A stretch of 40,646 nucleotides of DNA. It comes from Armatimonadota bacterium. Lineage in GTDB: Bacteria > Sysuimicrobiota > Sysuimicrobiia > Sysuimicrobiales > Kaftiobacteriaceae. Positions 99 to 40,642 of the stretch are shown piece by piece; within the stretch, counting starts at the first letter, position 1, and every line of letters starts with the position of its first letter. The stretch covers positions 1 to 40,646 of the forward strand of contig JAVHLZ010000021.1 of the NCBI GenBank assembly GCA_031081675.1, in the 5' to 3' direction. Below the pieces are notes generated by a model, which saw nothing but the letters and a program-made list of their open reading frames with translations, searched no databases and had not been told where the DNA came from. Position numbers and translations under genes: made by a program.

Positions 99-1817
99 GT
101 GACCGCGGCGCCTGCCGACTCCGCCGGGCAGTTTGCCCTGATCCTGCACACCCACCTGCCCTTCGTCCTGGGGCACGGGCGGTGGCCCCACGGCAGCGAC
201 TGGCTGCACGAGGTGGTGGCGGGAAGCTATCTCCCCCTGCTGCAGGCGCTGGCGGAGGCGGATGCCGCCGGGGTCCGCGTGCGAATCACGGCGGACGTCT
301 CGCCCGTGCTGGCCGAGCAGATGGCGTCCGCGGCATTCCGGCGCGAGTTCGAGGAGTTCATCCGCACCCGGCTGCACTGGGCTCAGGACAACGTCCGCCA
401 TTTCGACGCCTCAGGCGACGCCCGGCTCGCCGCCCTGGCCCGGCGCTGGGAACAGTGGTACCGGGAGCGGCTGCGGCAGTTCGAGGACGCCGGCGGCGAC
501 GTGGTGGGGCTGTTCCGGCGCCTCGCCGACCGGGAGGTGGCCGAGCTGATGACCTGCGCGGCCACCCACGGCTACCTGCCCCTGCTGGGACGGGACGAGT
601 CGGTGGCCCTGCAGCTGGGCGTGGCCGTCTCGACCCACGCGCGCCACTTCCGCAGGCATCCGGAGGGCGTCTGGCTGCCCGAATGCGCCTACCGGCCCCG
701 CTACGAGTGGACGCCGCCGGTGGGGCCGCAGCGGGGCCGGGTGCGCATGCAGCGGCGCGGGCTGGAGGAGTTCCTGGCCGAGTTCGGCCTGCACCACTTC
801 GTCACCGACATCCACCTGATCCGGGGCGGCAGCTCCCTGTCCCCCTACCGGGACTACTATCCGGCCCTGCAGGCGCTTCCCGCCGCCGTCCCTTCCCTGT
901 CCCGCCCGGACCGGTCGCCGTACCGGGCGTACCGGGTGGCGTCCCGCGGGGGGCGCGGGGAGGCGGCCGCCCTGGTCCGGGATCCGGACACCTCTCTGCA
1001 GGTGTGGAGCCGCGACCGCGGCTATCCGGGGGACGGGTGGTACCTGGAGTTCCACAAAAAGCACCCCGGGGGCCTGCGGTACTGGCGGGTCACGGGGGCC
1101 GGCGTCGGACTGGAGTCCAAGGAGGTCTACGAGCCCGACCGGGCCGCCCAGCGGGTCGCCGAGCACGCCGACCACTTCGTGGGTCTGCTGAGGACGGTCC
1201 TGGATGCGGCGCGGCAGATCGAGGGTGACGCGGCGGTGGTGGCCAGTCCGTTTGACACCGAGCTGTTTGGACACTGGTGGTTCGAAGGCCCCGCCTGGGT
1301 GGAGGCGGTCTTCCGGCGCCTGGGCCCCTCCGGCGTGGTGCCGGTGCGGGCCGACGAGTACCTGCGCGCGCATCCGCCAGAGCAGGTCGTCTCCCTGCTG
1401 GAAGGATCGTGGGGGGAGGGAGGAGATCACCGGGTGTGGCTCAACCAGAACACCGCGTGGGTGTGGGAACGGGTGTATGCCGCCGAGGAGACGTTCTGGA
1501 CCCTGGCCCGCCGGGTGCCCCCCGGCGCGTCCACCGCCCGGCGGGTCCTGGCCCAGCTGGCGCGGGAGCTGCTGCTGCTGCAGGCCTCCGACTGGCCGTT
1601 TTTGATCACGACCTGGGCGGCGCGGGACTACGCCGAGGCCCGGGTCGCCGACCACGCCGCCGCCTTCTCCCGCCTGAGCGGTACCCTGCAGACCCTGCTG
1701 GGCGGGGCGGAGCTGTCGAGGCGCGATGAGGAGTTCCTGACGGCCCGGGAAACTCTCAACGCCCTGTTCCCGGACGTCCTAGAGCAGGTGGACCGGGCGT
1801 GCGCCACGGCGGCGTAG
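99..1817 (+). CDS. GH57 1,4-alpha-glucan branching enzyme (DUF1957-type)
   Basis: Predicted cytosolic glycogen branching enzyme that cuts alpha-1,4 chains and rejoins them in alpha-1,6 linkage. Residues 16-21 hold the GH57 motif LHTHLP. GVWLPECAYRP holds the expected nucleophile Glu195, and SPFDTELFGHWWFEG holds the acid/base Asp386; both roles are assigned from characterised GH57 branching enzymes. The C-terminal helical region (WLNQNTAWVWERVYAAEE and after) is typical of this subfamily, and 572 aa is near its usual length. I chose GTG 99 because GGAGG at 88-92 lies 6 nt upstream. An in-frame GTG at 42 would add 19 residues that resemble no conserved N-terminus. It is the first gene of a run with glgC 16 nt downstream, which supports a role in glycogen synthesis. 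No GH13 GlgB is seen in the window, so this may be the only branching enzyme of the locus. Confidence 0.92.
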   Translation: MTAAPADSAGQFALILHTHLPFVLGHGRWPHGSDWLHEVVAGSYLPLLQALAEADAAGVRVRITADVSPVLAEQMASAAFRREFEEFIRTRLHWAQDNVRHFDASGDARLAALARRWEQWYRERLRQFEDAGGDVVGLFRRLADREVAELMTCAATHGYLPLLGRDESVALQLGVAVSTHARHFRRHPEGVWLPECAYRPRYEWTPPVGPQRGRVRMQRRGLEEFLAEFGLHHFVTDIHLIRGGSSLSPYRDYYPALQALPAAVPSLSRPDRSPYRAYRVASRGGRGEAAALVRDPDTSLQVWSRDRGYPGDGWYLEFHKKHPGGLRYWRVTGAGVGLESKEVYEPDRAAQRVAEHADHFVGLLRTVLDAARQIEGDAAVVASPFDTELFGHWWFEGPAWVEAVFRRLGPSGVVPVRADEYLRAHPPEQVVSLLEGSWGEGGDHRVWLNQNTAWVWERVYAAEETFWTLARRVPPGASTARRVLAQLARELLLLQASDWPFLITTWAARDYAEARVADHAAAFSRLSGTLQTLLGGAELSRRDEEFLTARETLNALFPDVLEQVDRACATAA

Positions 1818-7303: not shown

Positions 7304-9547
<2,244 letters not shown>

Positions 9548-33520: not shown

Positions 33521-33549
33521 TTGACCCGGCGGGTGAGGTGTGACATCAT
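33521..33549 (+). promoter_or_regulatory. Candidate promoter of the thioredoxin-fold fusion
   Basis: TTGACC (33521-33526), 17-nt spacer, CATCAT (33544-33549). The -35 is a good match and the -10 only 4/6. A start near 33556 would fall after the GGAGG at 33551-33555, which conflicts with use of that ribosome site, so the -10 may lie elsewhere. Confidence 0.3.
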
Positions 33550-33560
33550 CGGAGGCCGGA

Positions 33561-34499
33561 ATGTTCCAGATCGAGTTCCTGTACTGGGAGGACTGCCCCT
33601 CCCATGAGCCGGCCCTGAAGCGTCTGCGGCAGGTGGTGGAGGCCCTCGGGGTGCGCGCGTCGGTGCGCGTCATCCGGGTGGACACCGACGAACAGGCGCG
33701 GGCACTGCGCTTTGCCGGCTCGCCCACCATCCGCGTCAACGGCGTGGACCTGTTCCCCGCTCCCGGCGAGGCCTACCGGCTGACCTGCCGGGTCTTCCTG
33801 ACCCCCGACGGGCGGGTGACACCGATCCCCACGGTGGCGATGCTGGAAGATGCCCTGCGCTCCGCCCTGGACCGTCCCCCGCGGGCCGCCTCCGGGGAGC
33901 CCGCCGACGGGGGCGACGCGGGCGGGGGCCACACGCTCCTGGCGCTGGAGGTGGGCTCGCCGCTCATCCCCTTCACCCTGCGGGACGCCGCCGGCCACCG
34001 GGTCGGGACCGACGACTACCGCTCCGCCAGGGTCCTGGGCGTGGTCTTCACGTGCCTCCACTGCCCGTATGCCCTGGCGTGGGAAGACCGGCTGATCCGG
34101 ATCCAGCGGGACTACGCCGGCCGGGGCGTCCAGCTGCTGCTGGTCAACCCCACAGACCCCCGCCGGCACCCCGAGGACGGCGAGGAGAGCATGCGCCGCC
34201 GGGCGCAGGAGCGCGGGTATCCGTTCCCCTTCCTGGCCGACCCCGCCCAGGAGGTGGCGCGGCGGTATGGGGCGACGCGGACCCCCGAGGTGTTCCTGTT
34301 TGACTCCGCCGGGATCCTGCGCTACCACGGGGGGGTGGACGACAACAGCGAAGATCCCGCCGCCGTCCGCCACCCGTACCTCCGGCAGGCGCTGGACGCC
34401 CTGCTGGCCGGCCGGACCCCGCCGCTGGCGGAGACGCCGGTGATCGGCTGCCGGATCGTGTACGGACACGCCCCGGGCGGCCGGGGACGGGCGGACTAG
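33561..34499 (+). CDS. Fusion of a DF-family domain with a thioredoxin-like (PRX_like1) domain
   Basis: A 312-aa protein joining two thioredoxin-fold domains. Residues 1-105 resemble the DF family of (seleno)proteins: LYWEDCPSHEPALKRL with a single Cys12, FAGSPTIRVNGVDLF and TCRVFLTPDGR. After a Gly/Ala linker, residues 128-312 form a peroxiredoxin-like thioredoxin domain with FTCLHCPYALAWEDRL (Cys165, Cys168), VNPTDPRRHPEDGEESM, RTPEVFLFD and the ending TPVIGCRIVY. It is likely cytosolic, without a signal peptide, and probably a thiol-disulfide or peroxide reductase. ATG 33561 is chosen for GGAGG 5 nt upstream, over GTG 33540. Confidence 0.85.
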   Translation: MFQIEFLYWEDCPSHEPALKRLRQVVEALGVRASVRVIRVDTDEQARALRFAGSPTIRVNGVDLFPAPGEAYRLTCRVFLTPDGRVTPIPTVAMLEDALRSALDRPPRAASGEPADGGDAGGGHTLLALEVGSPLIPFTLRDAAGHRVGTDDYRSARVLGVVFTCLHCPYALAWEDRLIRIQRDYAGRGVQLLLVNPTDPRRHPEDGEESMRRRAQERGYPFPFLADPAQEVARRYGATRTPEVFLFDSAGILRYHGGVDDNSEDPAAVRHPYLRQALDALLAGRTPPLAETPVIGCRIVYGHAPGGRGRAD

Positions 34500-35095
34500 C
34501 CCGGCAGCCCGAGGGCCAGGCGCACGCCCGCCCCGAGCAGCAGCAGCCCGCACACGGCGGACAGCACCCGCAGGGCGGGACCGGTCATCCACCGCCGCGC
34601 CCAGCCGACGGCGGCCGCGAGGACCGCGCACCAGGCGATCGCCGCCGCCATCACGCCGGCGAAGACCGGGGCAAAGACCGGTGAGCCGGCGGGCGCCTGG
34701 GCGGCCACGGCCGCGCCAGCGGTCAGCCAGAATCCCATCGCCAGCGGGTTGGTCAGCGACAGGGCGGCGCCGGCGGCGAAGTCCGCCCCGGGACGGACCC
34801 GCGAGGGACGCGGGGTCGGGCTCCGCGCGTCGCGCAGCGCCCGCCAAGCCAGCCACAGCAGCAGGACGACGCCCGCCGCGCCCAGCGTCCGCCCCAGGCC
34901 GGTGCGCGTCAGCGTGGCCGCGCCCGCCAGGCCGGCCGCCGCCCACAGGGCGTCGCCCAGCAGCGAGCCCACCCCCAGGGCCAGCGCTGCCGTCCAGCCC
35001 CGGGCTGCCCCCCGGCGGACCGCCTCGGCGGTGACCGCCCCCGGAGCCGCGCAGAACGCCAGCCCCAGAACCCACCCCGTCACCACCAGGTTCAC
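34496..35095 (-). CDS. LysE/RhtB-family amino acid exporter
   Basis: A 199-aa inner-membrane protein with about six helices. The N-terminal GLAFCAAPGAVTAEAVRRGA is the LysE signature (PGP-like turn, here APGAV), and ALSLTNPLAMGFWLT is the second conserved motif. It probably exports an amino acid. GTG 35095 comes 7 nt after the glnA stop, so the two are likely co-translated and the substrate may relate to glutamine or nitrogen overflow; this is inference. Its stop shares CTAG (34496-34499) with the convergent thioredoxin-fold gene. Confidence 0.87.
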   Translation of the reverse strand: MNLVVTGWVLGLAFCAAPGAVTAEAVRRGAARGWTAALALGVGSLLGDALWAAAGLAGAATLTRTGLGRTLGAAGVVLLLWLAWRALRDARSPTPRPSRVRPGADFAAGAALSLTNPLAMGFWLTAGAAVAAQAPAGSPVFAPVFAGVMAAAIAWCAVLAAAVGWARRWMTGPALRVLSAVCGLLLLGAGVRLALGLPG

Positions 35096-35102
35096 GACCG
35101 CC

Positions 35103-36560
35103 TCACACGTCGTAGTAGAGGTGAAACTCCGCCGGGTGCGGCCGCAGGCGCACGAAGTCCACCTCCCGGCGGCGTTTGAGATCCAGCCAGGTCTCGATCA
35201 CGTCGGGAGTGAACACCCCTCCCTCCAGCAGGAAGGCGTGGTCCTCCTCCAGCGCGGCCAGCGCGCCTTCCAGCGACCCGGGGACCTGGCGGATCTTCCG
35301 GGCCTCCTCCGCCGGCAGCTCGTACAGGTCCACGTCCATCGGGTCGCCCGGGTCGAGGCGGCGCCGGATCCCGTCCAGGCCCGCCAGGAGCATGGCCGCA
35401 AACGCCAGGTAGGGGTTGGCGGAGGGATCCGGGGGCCGGTACTCGATGCGCTTGGCCCGCGGGCTGGCGGAGTACACGGGGATGCGCACCGCGGCGCTGC
35501 GGTTGCGCTGGGAGTACACCAGGTTCACCGGCGCCTCGTACCCGGGGACCAGCCGACGGTACGAGTTAGTGGTGGGGGCGCAGAACGCCAGCAGGGCCGG
35601 CGAGTGGTGCAGCAGGCCGCCGATGTAGTACATGGCCAGCTCGCTGAGCTGGGCGTAGCCATCGGGGTCGAAAAACAGGTTGACCTCTTCCCTCCACAGG
35701 CTCTGGTGGCAGTGCATCCCCGACCCGTTGTCCCCGAAGATGGGCTTGGGCATGAAGGTGGCGGTCTTGAAGTGGGCGCGGGCGAACATCTTGACCAGGT
35801 ACTTGTACAGCATCAGCCGGTCGGCCATCTCGGTGAGGGTGGCAAAGCGCAGGTCGATCTCGCACTGGCCCGCCGACGCCACCTCGTGGTGGTGGACCTC
35901 CACCTCCAGCCCGGCCTCGCGCATCTTCAGGACCAGCTCGCTGCGGAAGTCCTGGAGGCTGTCCGCCGGCGGGACCGGGAAGTAGCCCTCCTTGTGTCGG
36001 GGCTTGTAGCCCAGGTTGGGCCTTTCGTCGCGCCCGGTGTTCCAGGGGCCTTCCGCCGAGTCCACCAGATAGGAGGCACTGTGGGCCTGCAGGTCGTAAC
36101 GCACGTCGTCGAACACGAAGAACTCCGCCTCGGGCCCCCAGTAGCTGGCGGTGGCGATGCCGGTGCTCGCCAGGTAGTGCTCCGCCTTCTGGGCCACGTA
36201 GCGGGGGTCGCGGGTGTACCGCTCGCGGGTCACCGGATCGTAGACATCGCAGATGAGCATGAGGGTGGGCACCCGGAGCAGCGGGTCCACGCGCGCGGTC
36301 CGGGAATCGGGGAGCAGCAGCATGTCGGATTCGTCGATGGCCTGAAACCCCCGGATGCTGCTGCCGTCAAACCCCACCCCCTCCACGAACATGCTCTCGT
36401 CCAGCTCGTCGGCGGGAATGGAGAAGTGTTGCCACCCTCCCACCAGGTCGGTGAACCGGAAGTCCACCATCCGCACGCCCTGGCGGCGGCACAGGTCAAT
36501 CACCCGGGACGGGTTAATCAGCGCGTGGTCCGACAGGTGCGTGCGTATCTGATCGGTCAT
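35103..36560 (-). CDS. glnA: Glutamine synthetase type I
   Basis: A 485-aa enzyme assimilating ammonium into glutamine, a dodecamer in the cytosol. Signatures: VEGVGFDGSSIRGFQAIDES, ATASYWGPEAEFFVFD, KPIFGDNGSGMHCHQSLW, APTTNSYRRLVPGYEAPVNL and RIEYRPPDPSANPYLAFAAM. Tyr413 in DLYELPAEEA matches the adenylylation Tyr of the GSI-beta group, so covalent control by an adenylyltransferase is possible. ATG 36560 has GGAGG 5 nt upstream. It lies 37 nt after the flotillin gene and is followed by a LysE exporter. Confidence 0.96.
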   Translation of the reverse strand: MTDQIRTHLSDHALINPSRVIDLCRRQGVRMVDFRFTDLVGGWQHFSIPADELDESMFVEGVGFDGSSIRGFQAIDESDMLLLPDSRTARVDPLLRVPTLMLICDVYDPVTRERYTRDPRYVAQKAEHYLASTGIATASYWGPEAEFFVFDDVRYDLQAHSASYLVDSAEGPWNTGRDERPNLGYKPRHKEGYFPVPPADSLQDFRSELVLKMREAGLEVEVHHHEVASAGQCEIDLRFATLTEMADRLMLYKYLVKMFARAHFKTATFMPKPIFGDNGSGMHCHQSLWREEVNLFFDPDGYAQLSELAMYYIGGLLHHSPALLAFCAPTTNSYRRLVPGYEAPVNLVYSQRNRSAAVRIPVYSASPRAKRIEYRPPDPSANPYLAFAAMLLAGLDGIRRRLDPGDPMDVDLYELPAEEARKIRQVPGSLEGALAALEEDHAFLLEGGVFTPDVIETWLDLKRRREVDFVRLRPHPAEFHLYYDV

Positions 36561-36597
36561 GGGATCCTCCAAGAAGACGTGTCTCGCTCGGCCATCA

Positions 36598-37983
36598 TCA
36601 CCGCTCCACCGCCTCCGGCACCGGACGCCGGTCCGCCGCCGGGGCCTCCGCGCCGGGCAGCCGCCGCAGGATCGCGTCCAGCTTCATGCCCGTCAGGGCC
36701 TCCACCACCGCCGGCAGCTGGGCCAGGACCCGCGTGACCTCACCGGTCACCCGGGAGGCGCCCGCGCCGTCGCCGTTGCCGATGAGGATGATCTTGTCGG
36801 TCCGGGCCAGCGGCTCGGCCACGGCCCGCGCCAGATCGGGCAGGATGCGGATCACCAGGTCGGTCAGGGCCGCCTCGGTGTACTGGGACCAGGACCGGGC
36901 TTTCTGCTCCATCGCCTCGGCCTCGGCGATCCCCTTCAACCGCAGCGCCTCGGCCTCGGCGGCCCCGGTGGCCCGGATGCCCTCCGCGCGCCCGGCGGCC
37001 TCCGCGGCCAAGCGGTGCCGCTCGGCTTCCGCCAGCATCTGGATGCGCTCCCGCTCAGCCTGGGCCGGCTTGAGGACCTGGGCCACCAGCTCCTTCTCCC
37101 GGCGCAGGATCTCCCGGGCCTCCAGCTCGATGGCCTTGTCCTTCTCCACGATGCTCACCTGCATCTGCTCGGCCTTCACCTGCTGGCTGACGCGGTGGCG
37201 GTGCAGTTCGTAGGCCAGGTCCGCCTGCGCCCGCTGGGCGGCCACCTCGGCCTCGTAGGCCGCCTTGCGCACCGCCAGGTCCCGGCGCGCCTGCTCCACC
37301 TCCGCCTCGGCCGCCAGGCGGGTCTGCTGGGCCTCCCGTTCGGCCTCGGCCTCCGCCTTGACCGCGTCCCGCTTGACCTGGGCGATCCGGGGCCGGGCCA
37401 GGGCCTCCAGGTATCCCTGGCTGTCGGTGATGGTGCGGATGGTGAGGGAGACGATCTCCAGCCCCATCTTGGCCAGGTCCTCGGCGGCCGCCTCCCGGGC
37501 CGTGCGCGCCAGCGCGTCCCGGCCGCGGTAGATCTCCTCCACGGTCATGGTGCCGATGGCGGCCCGCAGGTGGCCCTCCAGGGTCTGCTGGACCGTCCGC
37601 ATCACATCCTCCCGGGACCGGGAGAGGAACTGCTGCGCGGCGGTGGCGATGCCGGCCTCGTCGCTGCGGACCCGCACCTGCGCCACCCCGTCCACGGTGA
37701 CGGGGATGGCGTGGGCGGTGTACACCTCCGCGGCGCGCACCTCCAGGGTCATCAGCTCCAGGGACAGCCGCTGCACCTTCTCCCGGACGGGCCACACGAA
37801 GGTGCCGCCGCCCAGGACCAGGCGGTACCCCACGGTCCGCACGGAGCCGTCGGGGCCCCGCACCCGCCGCCGACGGCCGGAGATGATCAGCACCTCGTTG
37901 GGACCGACCTTGGTGTACCGCGCGGCCCACAGGGCCACCCCGCCCGCCACCGCCAGCGCCAGGACACTCCACAGAACGATCAT
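36598..37983 (-). CDS. Flotillin-like SPFH/band 7 protein
   Basis: A 461-aa scaffold protein. One N-terminal membrane anchor (2-20, IVLWSVLALAVAGGVALWAA) is followed by the SPFH domain (about 25-200, with KVGPNEVLIISGRRRR and GTFVWPVREKVQRLSLELMT). A long Ala/Glu-rich coiled coil runs from about 205 to 370. DLVIRILPDLARAVAEPLAR and the C-terminal IILIGNGDGAGASRVTGEV match flotillins. Flotillins organise membrane microdomains and oligomers. It lies between a membrane-anchored unknown protein and glnA, downstream of amt. Confidence 0.92.
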   Translation of the reverse strand: MIVLWSVLALAVAGGVALWAARYTKVGPNEVLIISGRRRRVRGPDGSVRTVGYRLVLGGGTFVWPVREKVQRLSLELMTLEVRAAEVYTAHAIPVTVDGVAQVRVRSDEAGIATAAQQFLSRSREDVMRTVQQTLEGHLRAAIGTMTVEEIYRGRDALARTAREAAAEDLAKMGLEIVSLTIRTITDSQGYLEALARPRIAQVKRDAVKAEAEAEREAQQTRLAAEAEVEQARRDLAVRKAAYEAEVAAQRAQADLAYELHRHRVSQQVKAEQMQVSIVEKDKAIELEAREILRREKELVAQVLKPAQAERERIQMLAEAERHRLAAEAAGRAEGIRATGAAEAEALRLKGIAEAEAMEQKARSWSQYTEAALTDLVIRILPDLARAVAEPLARTDKIILIGNGDGAGASRVTGEVTRVLAQLPAVVEALTGMKLDAILRRLPGAEAPAADRRPVPEAVER

Positions 37984-38008: not shown

Positions 38009-39106
38009 CTACGCTCCCGCGGCCTCGCCGGCGCGGTGCACGCGGATCTCTTCCGCCCGCGCCCGGCCGGCGCGCTCCAGCTCCCGCCCCACCAGGTCCG
38101 CCAGCGTCCAGACGTCCGCGGCCATCAGCATCCGGGTCCCGGAGGACGCCGTGTCGGGAGGCGCGCACCCCACAACCCCGTCCACCTGCCAGACCTCCAC
38201 GGTCGTCCGCGCCCGGCCGTCGGGCACCGAGAGGACGTACCCGCATCGCCGGGCAGCCGCCGCCAGCTCGGCCCGCGCCCGGGGGTCCGGGCAGGTGAGG
38301 ACCAGCGGCCCGGCTCCCTGGTGCACCTCCCGCAGCGCCCGCAGGGCGGCCGCCAGCCCCGGCACGCGCACCGGCAGGTCCGGGGTGGCGAGATGGCCGT
38401 CCTCCCAGAACAGGGGCGCCCACAGCCCCTCGCCCTCCACCACGGCGCACGCCGGATGGTAGCGGAGGTCCCGCCAGGAGAGCGCGCGGACCTCCAGGTC
38501 TGCCCGCCCCAGGTAGCCCGCCAGCCGCTCGCGCAGGGTCGCCAGGGTGGCCGCCTCCAGCAGCGGGCCGCCGGGGACGCGGCCGCACAGCCGCCCGTCC
38601 CGGGCCGTCACCGGCACCGCCGGCCCGCCGCGCACCCGAAACACAAAGCGGGGCAGCCGGTAGCCCTCCAGCACCCAGACCAGGACCTCGCGCGCCGCCC
38701 GCTCCAGGGCTGCCAGGTTGCCGGCCACCAGGGGAAGGCCCGCGATCTCGGTCCGGTAGCGCTCCTTCAGCAGGACGCGCTCGGACCGCACCAGGTCCCG
38801 GTAGACCGGAATCCGGCCGGTGGTGGGAGCGCCTACTCCGGCCAGGTCCACCACGAGCTCGTACGCCGGACCGGCCGCCCCGGTCCGGGCACATCTCTGC
38901 AGGCGCATGTCCACCACCCGGGGGATCTCGGGTCGGCGGCGCCGGCGCATGGGCGCAGTTGCAATCGCGCGGGTCGCGCCCGCAGCTGCTGCGCCCGACG
39001 CCGCCCCCTCCCCGGCCCGCCGCCGATGGACGACCCGGTGGGGGATGATCACCCACAGCGCCAGCAGCACGCCGAACGCCACCAGCCCCAGCAGCACCTG
39101 CGTCAT
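38009..39106 (-). CDS. Unknown membrane-anchored protein coupled to Amt
   Basis: A 365-aa protein with one N-terminal helix (VLLGLVAFGVLLALWVIIPH), an Arg/Ala-rich linker to about residue 60 and a soluble region of about 300 residues. I recognise no known family. Visible stretches include YELVVDLAGVGAPTTGRIPV, LVRSERVLLKERYRTEIAGL, VPGGPLLEAATLATLRERLA and a late alternating pattern that could be a Rossmann-like fold (GAGPLVLTCPDPRARAELAA). The ATG overlaps the amt stop by 4 nt (ATGA), so it is translated together with the ammonium transporter. The flotillin gene begins 26 nt after it. A role in ammonium uptake or microdomain assembly is only inferred from context. Confidence 0.7.
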   Translation of the reverse strand: MTQVLLGLVAFGVLLALWVIIPHRVVHRRRAGEGAASGAAAAGATRAIATAPMRRRRRPEIPRVVDMRLQRCARTGAAGPAYELVVDLAGVGAPTTGRIPVYRDLVRSERVLLKERYRTEIAGLPLVAGNLAALERAAREVLVWVLEGYRLPRFVFRVRGGPAVPVTARDGRLCGRVPGGPLLEAATLATLRERLAGYLGRADLEVRALSWRDLRYHPACAVVEGEGLWAPLFWEDGHLATPDLPVRVPGLAAALRALREVHQGAGPLVLTCPDPRARAELAAAARRCGYVLSVPDGRARTTVEVWQVDGVVGCAPPDTASSGTRMLMAADVWTLADLVGRELERAGRARAEEIRVHRAGEAAGA

Positions 39107-40512
39107 GGCTGTCCTCCCGACTCCCCGGCGGCTCCCAGGATGGGGACCAGAACCTCGGGGTAGCACTCCACGCCGTGTTCGGGCACGTCCAGCCCTCCCA
39201 GCTCCTCCTCCCGGGATGCCCGCAGGCCCATGGTGGCCCGCAGCAGCCCGAACAGGGCGAACCCGGTGGCCAGGGACCACGCCGTCACCGTCACCACGCT
39301 GACGGCCTGAGCCAGGAGCTGCGCCCACGACCCGGCCACCAGCCCCCGCACGCCCCCGTAGGTGCCGTCGGCGAACACTCCCACGGCCAGCAGGCCCCAT
39401 AGCCCGCCCGCCGCGTGCACCGACACCGCACCCACCGCGTCGTCCACCCGCAGCGTGCGCTCGACAAACCCCAGGCTCCACAGCATCACCAGCGCCCCCA
39501 CCGCCCCGATGATCACCGCCGCCCAGGGGGCCACGTAGGCGCACGGCGCGGTGATGGCCACCAGCCCGGCCAGCGACCCGTTGCAGGCCAGGGTGACGTC
39601 CGCCTTGCCCGTGCGCAGGAGGGAGAGGTACAGCGCCACCACGGCCCCCGTGGTTCCGGCCAGGAAGGTGTTGACCGCAATCACCGAGATCCGCAGGTCG
39701 GTGGCCGCCAGGGTGGATCCGGGGTTGAACCCGAACCACCCGAAGAACAGGATGAACGTCCCGGTCACCACATAGGCCATGTTGTGGCCCGGGATCACGT
39801 TGGGGGTGCCATCGGGGTTGTACTTGCCGATGCGCGGCCCGACCATGGCCGCCCCGGCCAGCGCCACCAGCCCGCCTACCGCGTGCACCACCCCCGAGCC
39901 GGCGAAGTCCCGCGCCCCCACCCCCTCGCCCAGAAACGGCAGGTACTCGGACAGCCGGCCCAGCCAGCCGCCGCCCCATACCCAGTGGCCGTAGATGGGG
40001 TAGATGAGGGCGGAGACCAGGAAACTGTACGCCAGGTAGGCGGTGATCTTGGTGCGCTCGGCCACGGCGCCGGCCACGATGGTGGCCGCGGTAGCGGCGA
40101 AGACGATCTGGAAGAACCAGTACAGGATGGTGGTCACATCATAGCTCTGGCCGGTGAGGAAGAACCCCGAGTACCCGATCAGGGCGTTGCCGGCCTCCAG
40201 GCCCGGGGCGATCGCGCTCCCGCCGAACATGAAGGCAAAGCCGAACGCCCAGAAGGCCAGGGACGCCATGCAGAAGTCCATGAAGCTCTTGGTCAGGTAG
40301 TTGACGGTGTTCTTGGACCGGATCAGCCCCGCACCCAGCAGCGCGAACCCGGCCTGCATGAAGAACACCAGGAAGGCGGCCACCAGCGTCCAGGCGAAGT
40401 TGACCGCGGCCGCCGGGTCGGACGCCAGGGTGGCCCGACCTGTCGGGTCGCCGGCCCACGCGGAACCCGCCGCCACCATCACCCACACTGCCACCGCCAC
40501 CAGCCGCCGCAT
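39103..40512 (-). CDS. amt: Ammonium transporter (Amt/MEP/Rh family)
   Basis: A 469-aa inner-membrane channel-like transporter. A likely signal peptide (1-20, ending GSAWA) precedes the usual eleven-helix core, as in many bacterial Amt proteins. The conserved pore histidines are His210 (SGVVHAVGGLVAL) and His366 (SVHAAGGLWGLL). LIRSKNTVNYLTKSFMDF and FFGWFGFNPGST are diagnostic. The C-terminal tail has GGLDVPEHGVECYPEVL, the region that meets GlnK/PII in other Amts. No PII gene is adjacent; an unknown protein follows instead. ATG 40512 has GGAGGAGG upstream. Confidence 0.95.
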   Translation of the reverse strand: MRRLVAVAVWVMVAAGSAWAGDPTGRATLASDPAAAVNFAWTLVAAFLVFFMQAGFALLGAGLIRSKNTVNYLTKSFMDFCMASLAFWAFGFAFMFGGSAIAPGLEAGNALIGYSGFFLTGQSYDVTTILYWFFQIVFAATAATIVAGAVAERTKITAYLAYSFLVSALIYPIYGHWVWGGGWLGRLSEYLPFLGEGVGARDFAGSGVVHAVGGLVALAGAAMVGPRIGKYNPDGTPNVIPGHNMAYVVTGTFILFFGWFGFNPGSTLAATDLRISVIAVNTFLAGTTGAVVALYLSLLRTGKADVTLACNGSLAGLVAITAPCAYVAPWAAVIIGAVGALVMLWSLGFVERTLRVDDAVGAVSVHAAGGLWGLLAVGVFADGTYGGVRGLVAGSWAQLLAQAVSVVTVTAWSLATGFALFGLLRATMGLRASREEELGGLDVPEHGVECYPEVLVPILGAAGESGGQP

Positions 40513-40548: not shown

Positions 40549-40576
40549 ACGGCGCCCTCCGCCAGGAGGGCGCCGT
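40549..40576 (-). promoter_or_regulatory. Strong hairpin in the amt leader
   Basis: ACGGCGCCCTCC (40549-40560) and GGAGGGCGCCGT (40565-40576) form a perfect 12-bp stem with a 4-nt loop, between the promoter and the amt start. On the - strand the sequence after it, CTGTGTTTGTG, is only partly U-rich, so it is a possible attenuator or leader stabiliser rather than a clear terminator. It is 36 nt upstream of the amt start. Confidence 0.55.
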
Positions 40577-40613: not shown

Positions 40614-40642
40614 ACCCTAGCACAGGCCGCCCCGCCGGTCAA
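40614..40642 (-). promoter_or_regulatory. Promoter of the amt operon
   Basis: On the - strand, TTGACC (40642-40637), 17-nt spacer, TAGGGT (40619-40614) preceded by TGC, an extended -10. Transcription would start near 40607, giving a leader of about 95 nt that contains the hairpin at 40549-40576. Confidence 0.5.

Follow-up and report, generated by a model that had tools for sequence, protein, structure and literature searches.

A single-pass membrane microprotein family occupying the glnK slot of Sysuimicrobiota amt-glnA loci, with a long form beside a flotillin gene

The amt operon and its leader

The window, which is the whole stretch of DNA that was analysed, is an entire contig (C21) of 40,646 bases from a 2.29-Mb genome bin that is 98% complete. 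It belongs to the order Sysuimicrobiales of the phylum CSP1-3 or Sysuimicrobiota, which comprises one class and one order according to the excerpted text of its description (PMC11604079). Four genes, amt, a gene for a protein of 365 aa, a flotillin gene and glnA, are read in one direction on the minus strand, as are all of the features given below, and the contig ends 134 nt upstream of amt. The Amt/MEP ammonium transporter (positions 39,103 to 40,512, 469 aa) matches PF00909 with an E-value of 1.9e-122 and 409.3 bits against a gathering cut-off of 23.2, is above the cut-off of TIGR00836, and is the sole PF00909 match in the genome. The gene for the 365-aa protein (38,009 to 39,106), recognised from its open reading frame and translation, has full-length homologues in six other genomes of the order. 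It is followed after 25 nt by the gene for a flotillin, an SPFH protein of 461 aa (36,598 to 37,983), which is above the cut-offs of both PF01145 (Band_7; E-value 1e-32, 114.1 against 23.6 bits) and PF15975 (Flot; E-value 1.6e-6, 28.7 against 27 bits). This is a flotillin but not FloT, since the FloT equivalog model NF058507 gave 372.8 bits, below its cut-off of 700 bits. After a further 25 to 37 nt, depending on the start codon chosen, comes glnA (35,103 to 36,572), encoding a type I glutamine synthetase with 645.2 bits for TIGR00653 against a cut-off of 429.15. The LysE gene that lies after glnA is not conserved, with no match in the eight related loci searched.

A sequence-only reading of this DNA had described an amt gene coupled by an ATGA to a 365-aa protein with one helix, with flotillin and glutamine synthetase genes following in the same direction. 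This arrangement is borne out by the overlap of the amt stop with the next start (39,103 to 39,106), the hydrophobic N-terminal helix, and the Band_7/Flot and TIGR00653 matches on the minus strand.

A promoter-like TTGACC-17-TAGGGT with a weak -10 (40,614 to 40,642) was seen by eye upstream of amt, and is absent from the list made by the consensus scan. Between this site and amt, sequence scans identified a GC-rich hairpin (40,549 to 40,576) that has a perfect stem of 12 bp and a T-rich tail, a candidate attenuator. Several amt leaders of the order, judged by eye, combine a TTGACA-type promoter with a GC-rich hairpin behind it, which has a T-run and a GACGCC/GGCGTC core common to these leaders. 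Of 13 amt leaders put through a strict scan for a perfect stem of at least 8 and a T-rich tail, 7 have such a hairpin, against 0.1 expected in shuffles: that of G003 and 6 of the 12 from the window-type clade. The promoter pattern of the scan was found in 5 of the 13. No Rfam family matched the window or the amt leaders of eight related loci.

ANTAR domains were found in all five of the response regulators tested near amt/glnA loci of relatives. An ANTAR protein is present in 39 of the 43 genomes of the order, with one match in the genome of the window, on another contig. Antitermination of nitrogen genes by ANTAR proteins is known, with ammonium transporters among the targets in the cited portions of the source, and the likeness here lies in the T-run hairpins of the amt leaders and the ANTAR response regulators encoded near amt/glnA (PMC3369931). 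Control of the operon probably lies with a leader hairpin attenuator on which an ANTAR response regulator acts, and not with PII-GlnE signalling.

The long protein and the free-standing microprotein

As the sequence-only reading had it, the 365-aa protein falls into no recognised family. Nothing significant in Pfam, NCBIfam, PHROGs and the PDB sequences matched either the protein alone or its seven-member family, the lowest E-values being 0.011 (a beta-propeller model, for three of the seven members) and 0.17 in the PDB. In a test for PII, there was no PF00543 match for the protein at E-values up to 1, nor for any of the seven members at E-values up to 5. In a test for an NfeD partner, the protein had no match to PF01957 in Pfam up to an E-value of 1.

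The long form is 365 to 423 aa across the family and is 27 to 32% identical to the window protein over the whole alignment (29 to 40% in local BLAST), whereas the neighbouring amt, flotillin and glnA products are 66 to 79% identical to those of the window. The dN/dS of the long form is 0.34 for G016-G019, 0.35 for G025-G028, 0.27 for G016-G025 and 0.58 for the distant pair G000-G012; for the neighbours it is 0.10 to 0.24 (flotillin), 0.06 to 0.14 (glnA) and 0.12 to 0.15 (amt). With values of 0.27 to 0.35 in the three closer pairs and 0.58 in the one distant pair, the 365-aa frame is a real gene. The identities of 27 to 32%, against 66 to 79% for the neighbours, indicate that the repeat domain described below evolves fast, as would be expected of a loose linker no less than of a binding domain.

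A scan of the contig collection with the window protein found no relatives outside the order, and with the family alignment A3 it found three loci, corresponding to G025, G028 and G012. Two other matches were set aside. One is outside the order (G214; long-protein profile, E-value 7.1e-4, positions 325 to 388), has no similar neighbours and was taken as chance; the other, in G018, is without the context of long form, flotillin and glnA.

This flotillin is present in seven of the 43 genomes of the order (E-value of 1e-20 or below), and the same seven carry the full-length protein. In all seven, in which four families are represented, the gene order is long form, flotillin, glnA. In five of these loci amt comes first (G000, G012, G017, G025 and G028), so that the linkage proposed from the one locus recurs with flotillin and glnA in every full-length copy and with amt in five of the seven. 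By eye, the amt beside the long form in G016 is an N-terminal remnant, and in G019 only the amt leader can be recognised. G016 has another amt elsewhere; the G019 genome, which is 98% complete, has no PF00909 match. These losses of amt may be one event, because the two genomes share a genus. Despite them, the long form is under purifying selection, the dN/dS of this pair (0.34) standing against 0.35 where amt is present. As selection retains it in G019, a genome in which no Amt was found, the long form cannot serve Amt alone.

The first 35 or so residues of the long form (39,002 to 39,106), consisting of a short N-terminus, a hydrophobic helix and a basic flank, also occur alone. They are kin to free-standing single-helix microproteins of 31 to 36 aa at six other amt-glnA loci, and a seventh short-form locus (G011) has lost amt. 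A profile made from the seven long proteins only was searched across 386 genomes and matched short frames beside second amt copies in six of them, with whole-genome E-values from 2.5e-9 (G028:C10) to 6.8e-6 (G012:C98), the others being G025:C1, G031, G022 and G016:C1. The short form of G011 (E-value 1.1e-4) lies beside glnA, and the amt there is, by eye, a C-terminal remnant. The short frames are between amt and glnA, and no such flotillin is adjacent to these second amt copies. The frame in G012 could begin earlier (37 to 40 aa), and at the short-form locus of G022 amt is divided between two contigs. A Shine-Dalgarno-like stretch is near the start in six of the seven short frames, and in G012 for the earlier start. 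Over 30 codons of five short frames, dN is 0.06 to 0.18 against dS of 0.41 to 2.7 in all 10 pairs, which are non-independent.

Residues F10, L13, W17 and P21 are invariant in all 15 aligned segments, and E2, L20, R23 and R27 are nearly so. The hydrophobic stretch has a mean of 2.1 to 2.9 over 17 residues. The helix is followed by a net positive charge in 14 of the 15 segments, that of G017 being neutral, and the C-terminal side, with the remainder of the protein after the helix, is thus probably cytosolic.

A 15-row microprotein profile gave 15 matches in the 386 genomes (47 to 70 bits), all within the order. The best score outside the order was 22.6 bits, for a frame that contains a stop, and was taken as noise; as up to 20 candidates per genome were scored, weak members may be missed. 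The long-protein profile is the independent test, because the 15-row profile includes its own rows. The microprotein rows have nothing significant in Pfam, NCBIfam or the PDB (best E-values 0.0045, PIG-P, and 0.032, PspB). On the evidence of these alignments, the 365-aa gene belongs to a new family based on a single-pass membrane microprotein. Across the family, short and long, 14 of the 15 copies are associated with glnA. The G029 genome, from which this flotillin is absent, has a 109-aa form after amt that consists of the helix and about one repeat, with no glnA beside it.

The part of the window protein that is linked to amt is the N-terminal segment of about 35 residues, which the earlier reading had missed. 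Separately, in G002 a 44-aa frame follows a different Amt without PII and overlaps glnA by an ATGA. It has E-values of 1.4e-4 at the locus and 0.036 genome-wide and no net positive charge after its helix, and is a weak lead only.

Beyond the helix lies a predicted cytosolic region (38,072 to 38,911) with about four related beta-rich/alpha repeats, for which there is moderate support from AlphaFold2 models of the window protein and its G012 homologue and from comparison of the family profile with itself. The repeats R1 to R4 are at approximately 38,663 to 38,911, 38,459 to 38,647, 38,324 to 38,446 and 38,072 to 38,251, with boundaries chosen from the model. The models, which rest on four sequences, have a pLDDT of 71.3 and pTM of 0.53 (window protein) and a pLDDT of 71.6 and pTM of 0.61 (G012), and the predicted layout is the helix, a low-confidence linker, and then repeated strands plus a helix. 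In the profile comparisons, R1 matches R2 (E-value 2.5e-5, probability 75%), R3 matches R4 (3.2e-6, 88%), and the whole repeat region matches itself with a shift of one unit (2.6e-7, 93%). R2-R4 is weak (0.003), and R2-R3, R1-R3 and R1-R4 are not significant; the E-value is below 0.005 in three of the six repeat-to-repeat comparisons. A HicB-like repeat, an idea taken from the repeat pattern, was rejected, the family having no significant match in Pfam or PDB sequences.

Fold searches of the PDB with both models and of a viral library with the first gave no match at an E-value of 0.001 or below, which is no proof of a new fold. The best PDB rows were sliding clamps and phospholipase C-gamma, with TM-scores of 0.05 to 0.14. 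With VIA-align, the models gave Z under 6. SH2-containing chains were among the best rows for residues 64 to 147 of the window model (Z 3.7 to 5.9) and for residues 66 to 159 of the G012 model (Z 4.2 to 5.1), in both cases below the trust level of the tool. Since the models rest on four sequences and there is no clear structural match, no partner can be read from the structure.

The glnK slot and the Amt tree

Amt and GlnK form a regulator pair that is widespread in bacteria and archaea, PII/GlnK binding to Amt and blocking it according to 2-oxoglutarate/ATP. The gene directly downstream of amt here is in the same slot as glnK in the amtB-glnK operons. Its product differs in having one hydrophobic helix and no PF00543 match, and is not a PII by sequence.

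A total of 48 amt loci were taken, 27 in the order and 21 outside it, and genes within 700 nt downstream of amt were counted. The outside loci were among the best 30 matches, and in these near relatives Amt does usually go with PII: PII is present in 17 of the 21, always within about 320 nt downstream, and the microprotein in none. Of the four loci that lack PII, one has 66 nt of sequence beyond amt. In the window-type Amt clade, the microprotein or the long form is next to amt in 11 of 11 loci and PII in none. The other Amts of the order have PII downstream in seven of 14 cases and none in the remaining seven, one of which (G039) has a PII upstream. The absence of PII beside amt is therefore not peculiar to the window-type clade (7 of 14 in the order and 4 of 21 outside).

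The tree was built from the 46 Amts with more than 250 aligned residues, leaving out the fragments L053 and L062. The 11 Amts with a microprotein or long form downstream are one clade (100/100), and its sister consists of three PII-linked Amts (95/89). There are 8 label changes in all, a number as low being found in none of 200 shuffles. Five long end branches are elsewhere in the tree, and joins there carry a warning from the tool. Within the clade, the short-form copy G012:C98 branches first, followed by a split of the short-form copies from a subclade of the five long-form copies and G029 (99/92). With PII on the related Amts and the microprotein or long form throughout this clade, it follows that a membrane microprotein took the glnK slot. 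Because the Amts with the family form one clade, a single replacement of glnK is the simplest history. On this simplest reading of the tree, glnK would have been replaced once by the short microprotein, with duplication and then growth of the repeat domain together with flotillin. In the second copy, with the flotillin gene, the microprotein segment would have gained the linker and about four beta-rich/alpha repeats.

There is no PF00543 match in the genome of the window. Among the 11 family genomes, five have none at an E-value of 0.001 or below (G000, G011, G012, G017 and G029), five have weak matches of 21 to 26 bits, one of them over the cut-off, and in G031 there is a strong PII, which lies next to another Amt. 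Weak matches, of 21 to 27 bits, are those of G016, G019, G022, G025, G028, G003 and G031:C280, with G016 and G031:C280 exceeding the cut-off of 25. In G016 the match is to a PII-like ORF of 96 aa, flanked by two longer genes that are pump-like by eye. GlnE, which is present in 3 of 14 control genomes, was matched in none of the 43 genomes of the order.

A possible membrane adaptor

It is possible that the family is a membrane adaptor linking Amt, glutamine synthetase and, in the long form, flotillin. We put this at just short of an even chance, and in it we infer the topology, the docking to Amt, the tethering of glutamine synthetase and the binding of flotillin. The helix of the microprotein would dock to Amt in the membrane and/or hold a partner there, while the basic end and the repeats would face the cytosol and bring glutamine synthetase to the transporter. 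The long form would also bring glutamine synthetase to a flotillin patch, through repeats that bind flotillin, and incoming ammonia would thereby be fixed at the membrane. An adaptor was chosen over a pure gate of Amt because the long form persists in G019, because of the association of nearly all copies with glnA (14/15), and because there is a single small repeat domain where flotillin is absent, in one case.

That the microprotein and the long form functionally replace PII, gating Amt and, like GlnK elsewhere, shutting off ammonium uptake in times of abundant nitrogen, is unlikely. A small protein that controls Amt does exist in sP36 of Methanosarcina mazei, which has 61 aa and is described as hexameric and as dispersed in the cytoplasm under nitrogen limitation; however, it acts with GlnK1 and not in its stead, in the parts of the source cited here (PMC10714827). 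The same text relates its conservation to the absence of GlnD and mentions some bacteria that have it (PMC10714827). It is like the microprotein in being a small protein tied to ammonium transport, and is set apart, by its description in those parts, from a product with one hydrophobic helix (PMC10714827). The sequence-only reading had made the 365-aa protein a candidate for replacing PII or for a scaffold adaptor in a putative membrane microdomain. In terms of position the first of these has support, with the glnK slot of one Amt clade occupied in 11 of 11 loci, no PF00543 match in the genome of the window and no GlnE match in the 43 genomes. A role equal to that of GlnK has been weakened by the want of a PII sequence match, by a single helix of 35 aa without an evident sensor, and by the retention of the long form under selection in G019, in which no Amt was found.

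Less likely still is that the long protein is a cofactor of flotillin, with a role comparable to that of NfeD and a place in the nitrogen operon that is historical. FloT loci pair with NfeD partners, and here too a flotillin has a membrane protein encoded beside it, but this partner has no PF01957 match and its neighbours serve ammonium assimilation. The co-occurrence with this flotillin in seven of seven genomes, even where amt has been lost, argues for such a cofactor, as does the presence of only about one repeat in G029, which is without the flotillin. Against this, the N-terminal segment is common to microproteins between amt and glnA that lack this flotillin, and the long unit is joined to glnA in all seven cases.

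KdpF is a small protein that binds a transporter. So are AcrZ and MgtS, as named in the excerpted text of a review (PMC10710835). The microprotein resembles these three in size and in a presumed action on a transporter; it differs in its linkage to an ammonium channel and glutamine synthetase, and no sequence relation to them was found. The least probable account is that it protects or assembles Amt trimers without regulation, the repeats being a lineage-specific add-on: the text of that review does describe small proteins with a binding or protecting role for transporters (PMC10710835), and all 15 segments share four invariant residues (F10, L13, W17 and P21), but this account explains neither the retention in G019, with no Amt found, nor why glnK is missing from that slot.

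A more far-reaching view, itself rather unlikely, would be that this lineage dropped GlnK-GlnE control, with the microprotein family running Amt and glutamine synthetase and the long form building a flotillin-organised patch in which ammonium is fixed. Among the literature matches listed, the excerpted texts name neither a bacterial operon that joins amt to flotillin nor a single-helix microprotein of this type with a link to Amt. The microprotein is too short for ordinary gene calling and was missed at a limit of 50 aa. Its presence in the glnK slot offers a testable case of how a cell may control the uptake of ammonium, or couple it to assimilation, in the absence of PII, and the free-standing form, at 35 residues, is an easily made object for such tests. 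The long form sets a bacterial flotillin in a metabolic context.

Nitrogen-control genes and RNA leaders in the order

No match to GlnE (PF03710) was found in any of the 43 genomes of the order (G000-G042), and Amt was unmatched in 21 of the 43, some of the bins being incomplete. A PII-like ORF of 96 aa (L028:1435-1725, minus strand) is flanked by two longer genes that appear pump-like by eye; it may be a PII of a kind tied to efflux.

Guanidine-I (ykkC-type) riboswitch matches lie directly upstream of gltB in two related loci (L065:14952-15058, minus strand; L066:2110-2216, plus strand), both exceeding the gathering score only barely. These could be the ppGpp-sensing ykkC subtype, which would be a better match for glutamate synthase. 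On a contig of the related genome G012, a T-box leader (L011:332-575, plus strand) precedes a long plus-strand gene.

SPFH and other neighbouring genes

G012 also encodes an NfeD protein together with a separate SPFH protein (L063:11654-13768, plus strand), close to its short-form amt-glnA locus. This SPFH protein differs in type from the flotillin of the window.

Within the window, a LysE-type exporter gene (34496-35095, minus strand) begins 7 nt after glnA, and was unmatched in all eight related loci searched. The gene at 33540-34499 (plus strand) encodes a single chain joining a weak DUF2703-like start to an AhpC/TSA redoxin part.

The microprotein, its long form or a candidate beside a different or decayed amt

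In G002 (contig C26; L045/L070), a 44-aa frame directly after amt shows the microprotein's E, F, L, W, P pattern, though with a weak score, and shares an ATGA overlap with glnA. The preceding Amt is a different one, without PII.

Three genomes have a decayed amt with the adjoining microprotein or long form kept: an N-terminal remnant in G016 (L012:8462-8791), a C-terminal remnant in G011 (L088, about 1640-1710, minus strand) and only the leader in G019 (L015, about 8800-9200). Since G016 and G019 belong to the same genus, their amt decay may represent one shared event.
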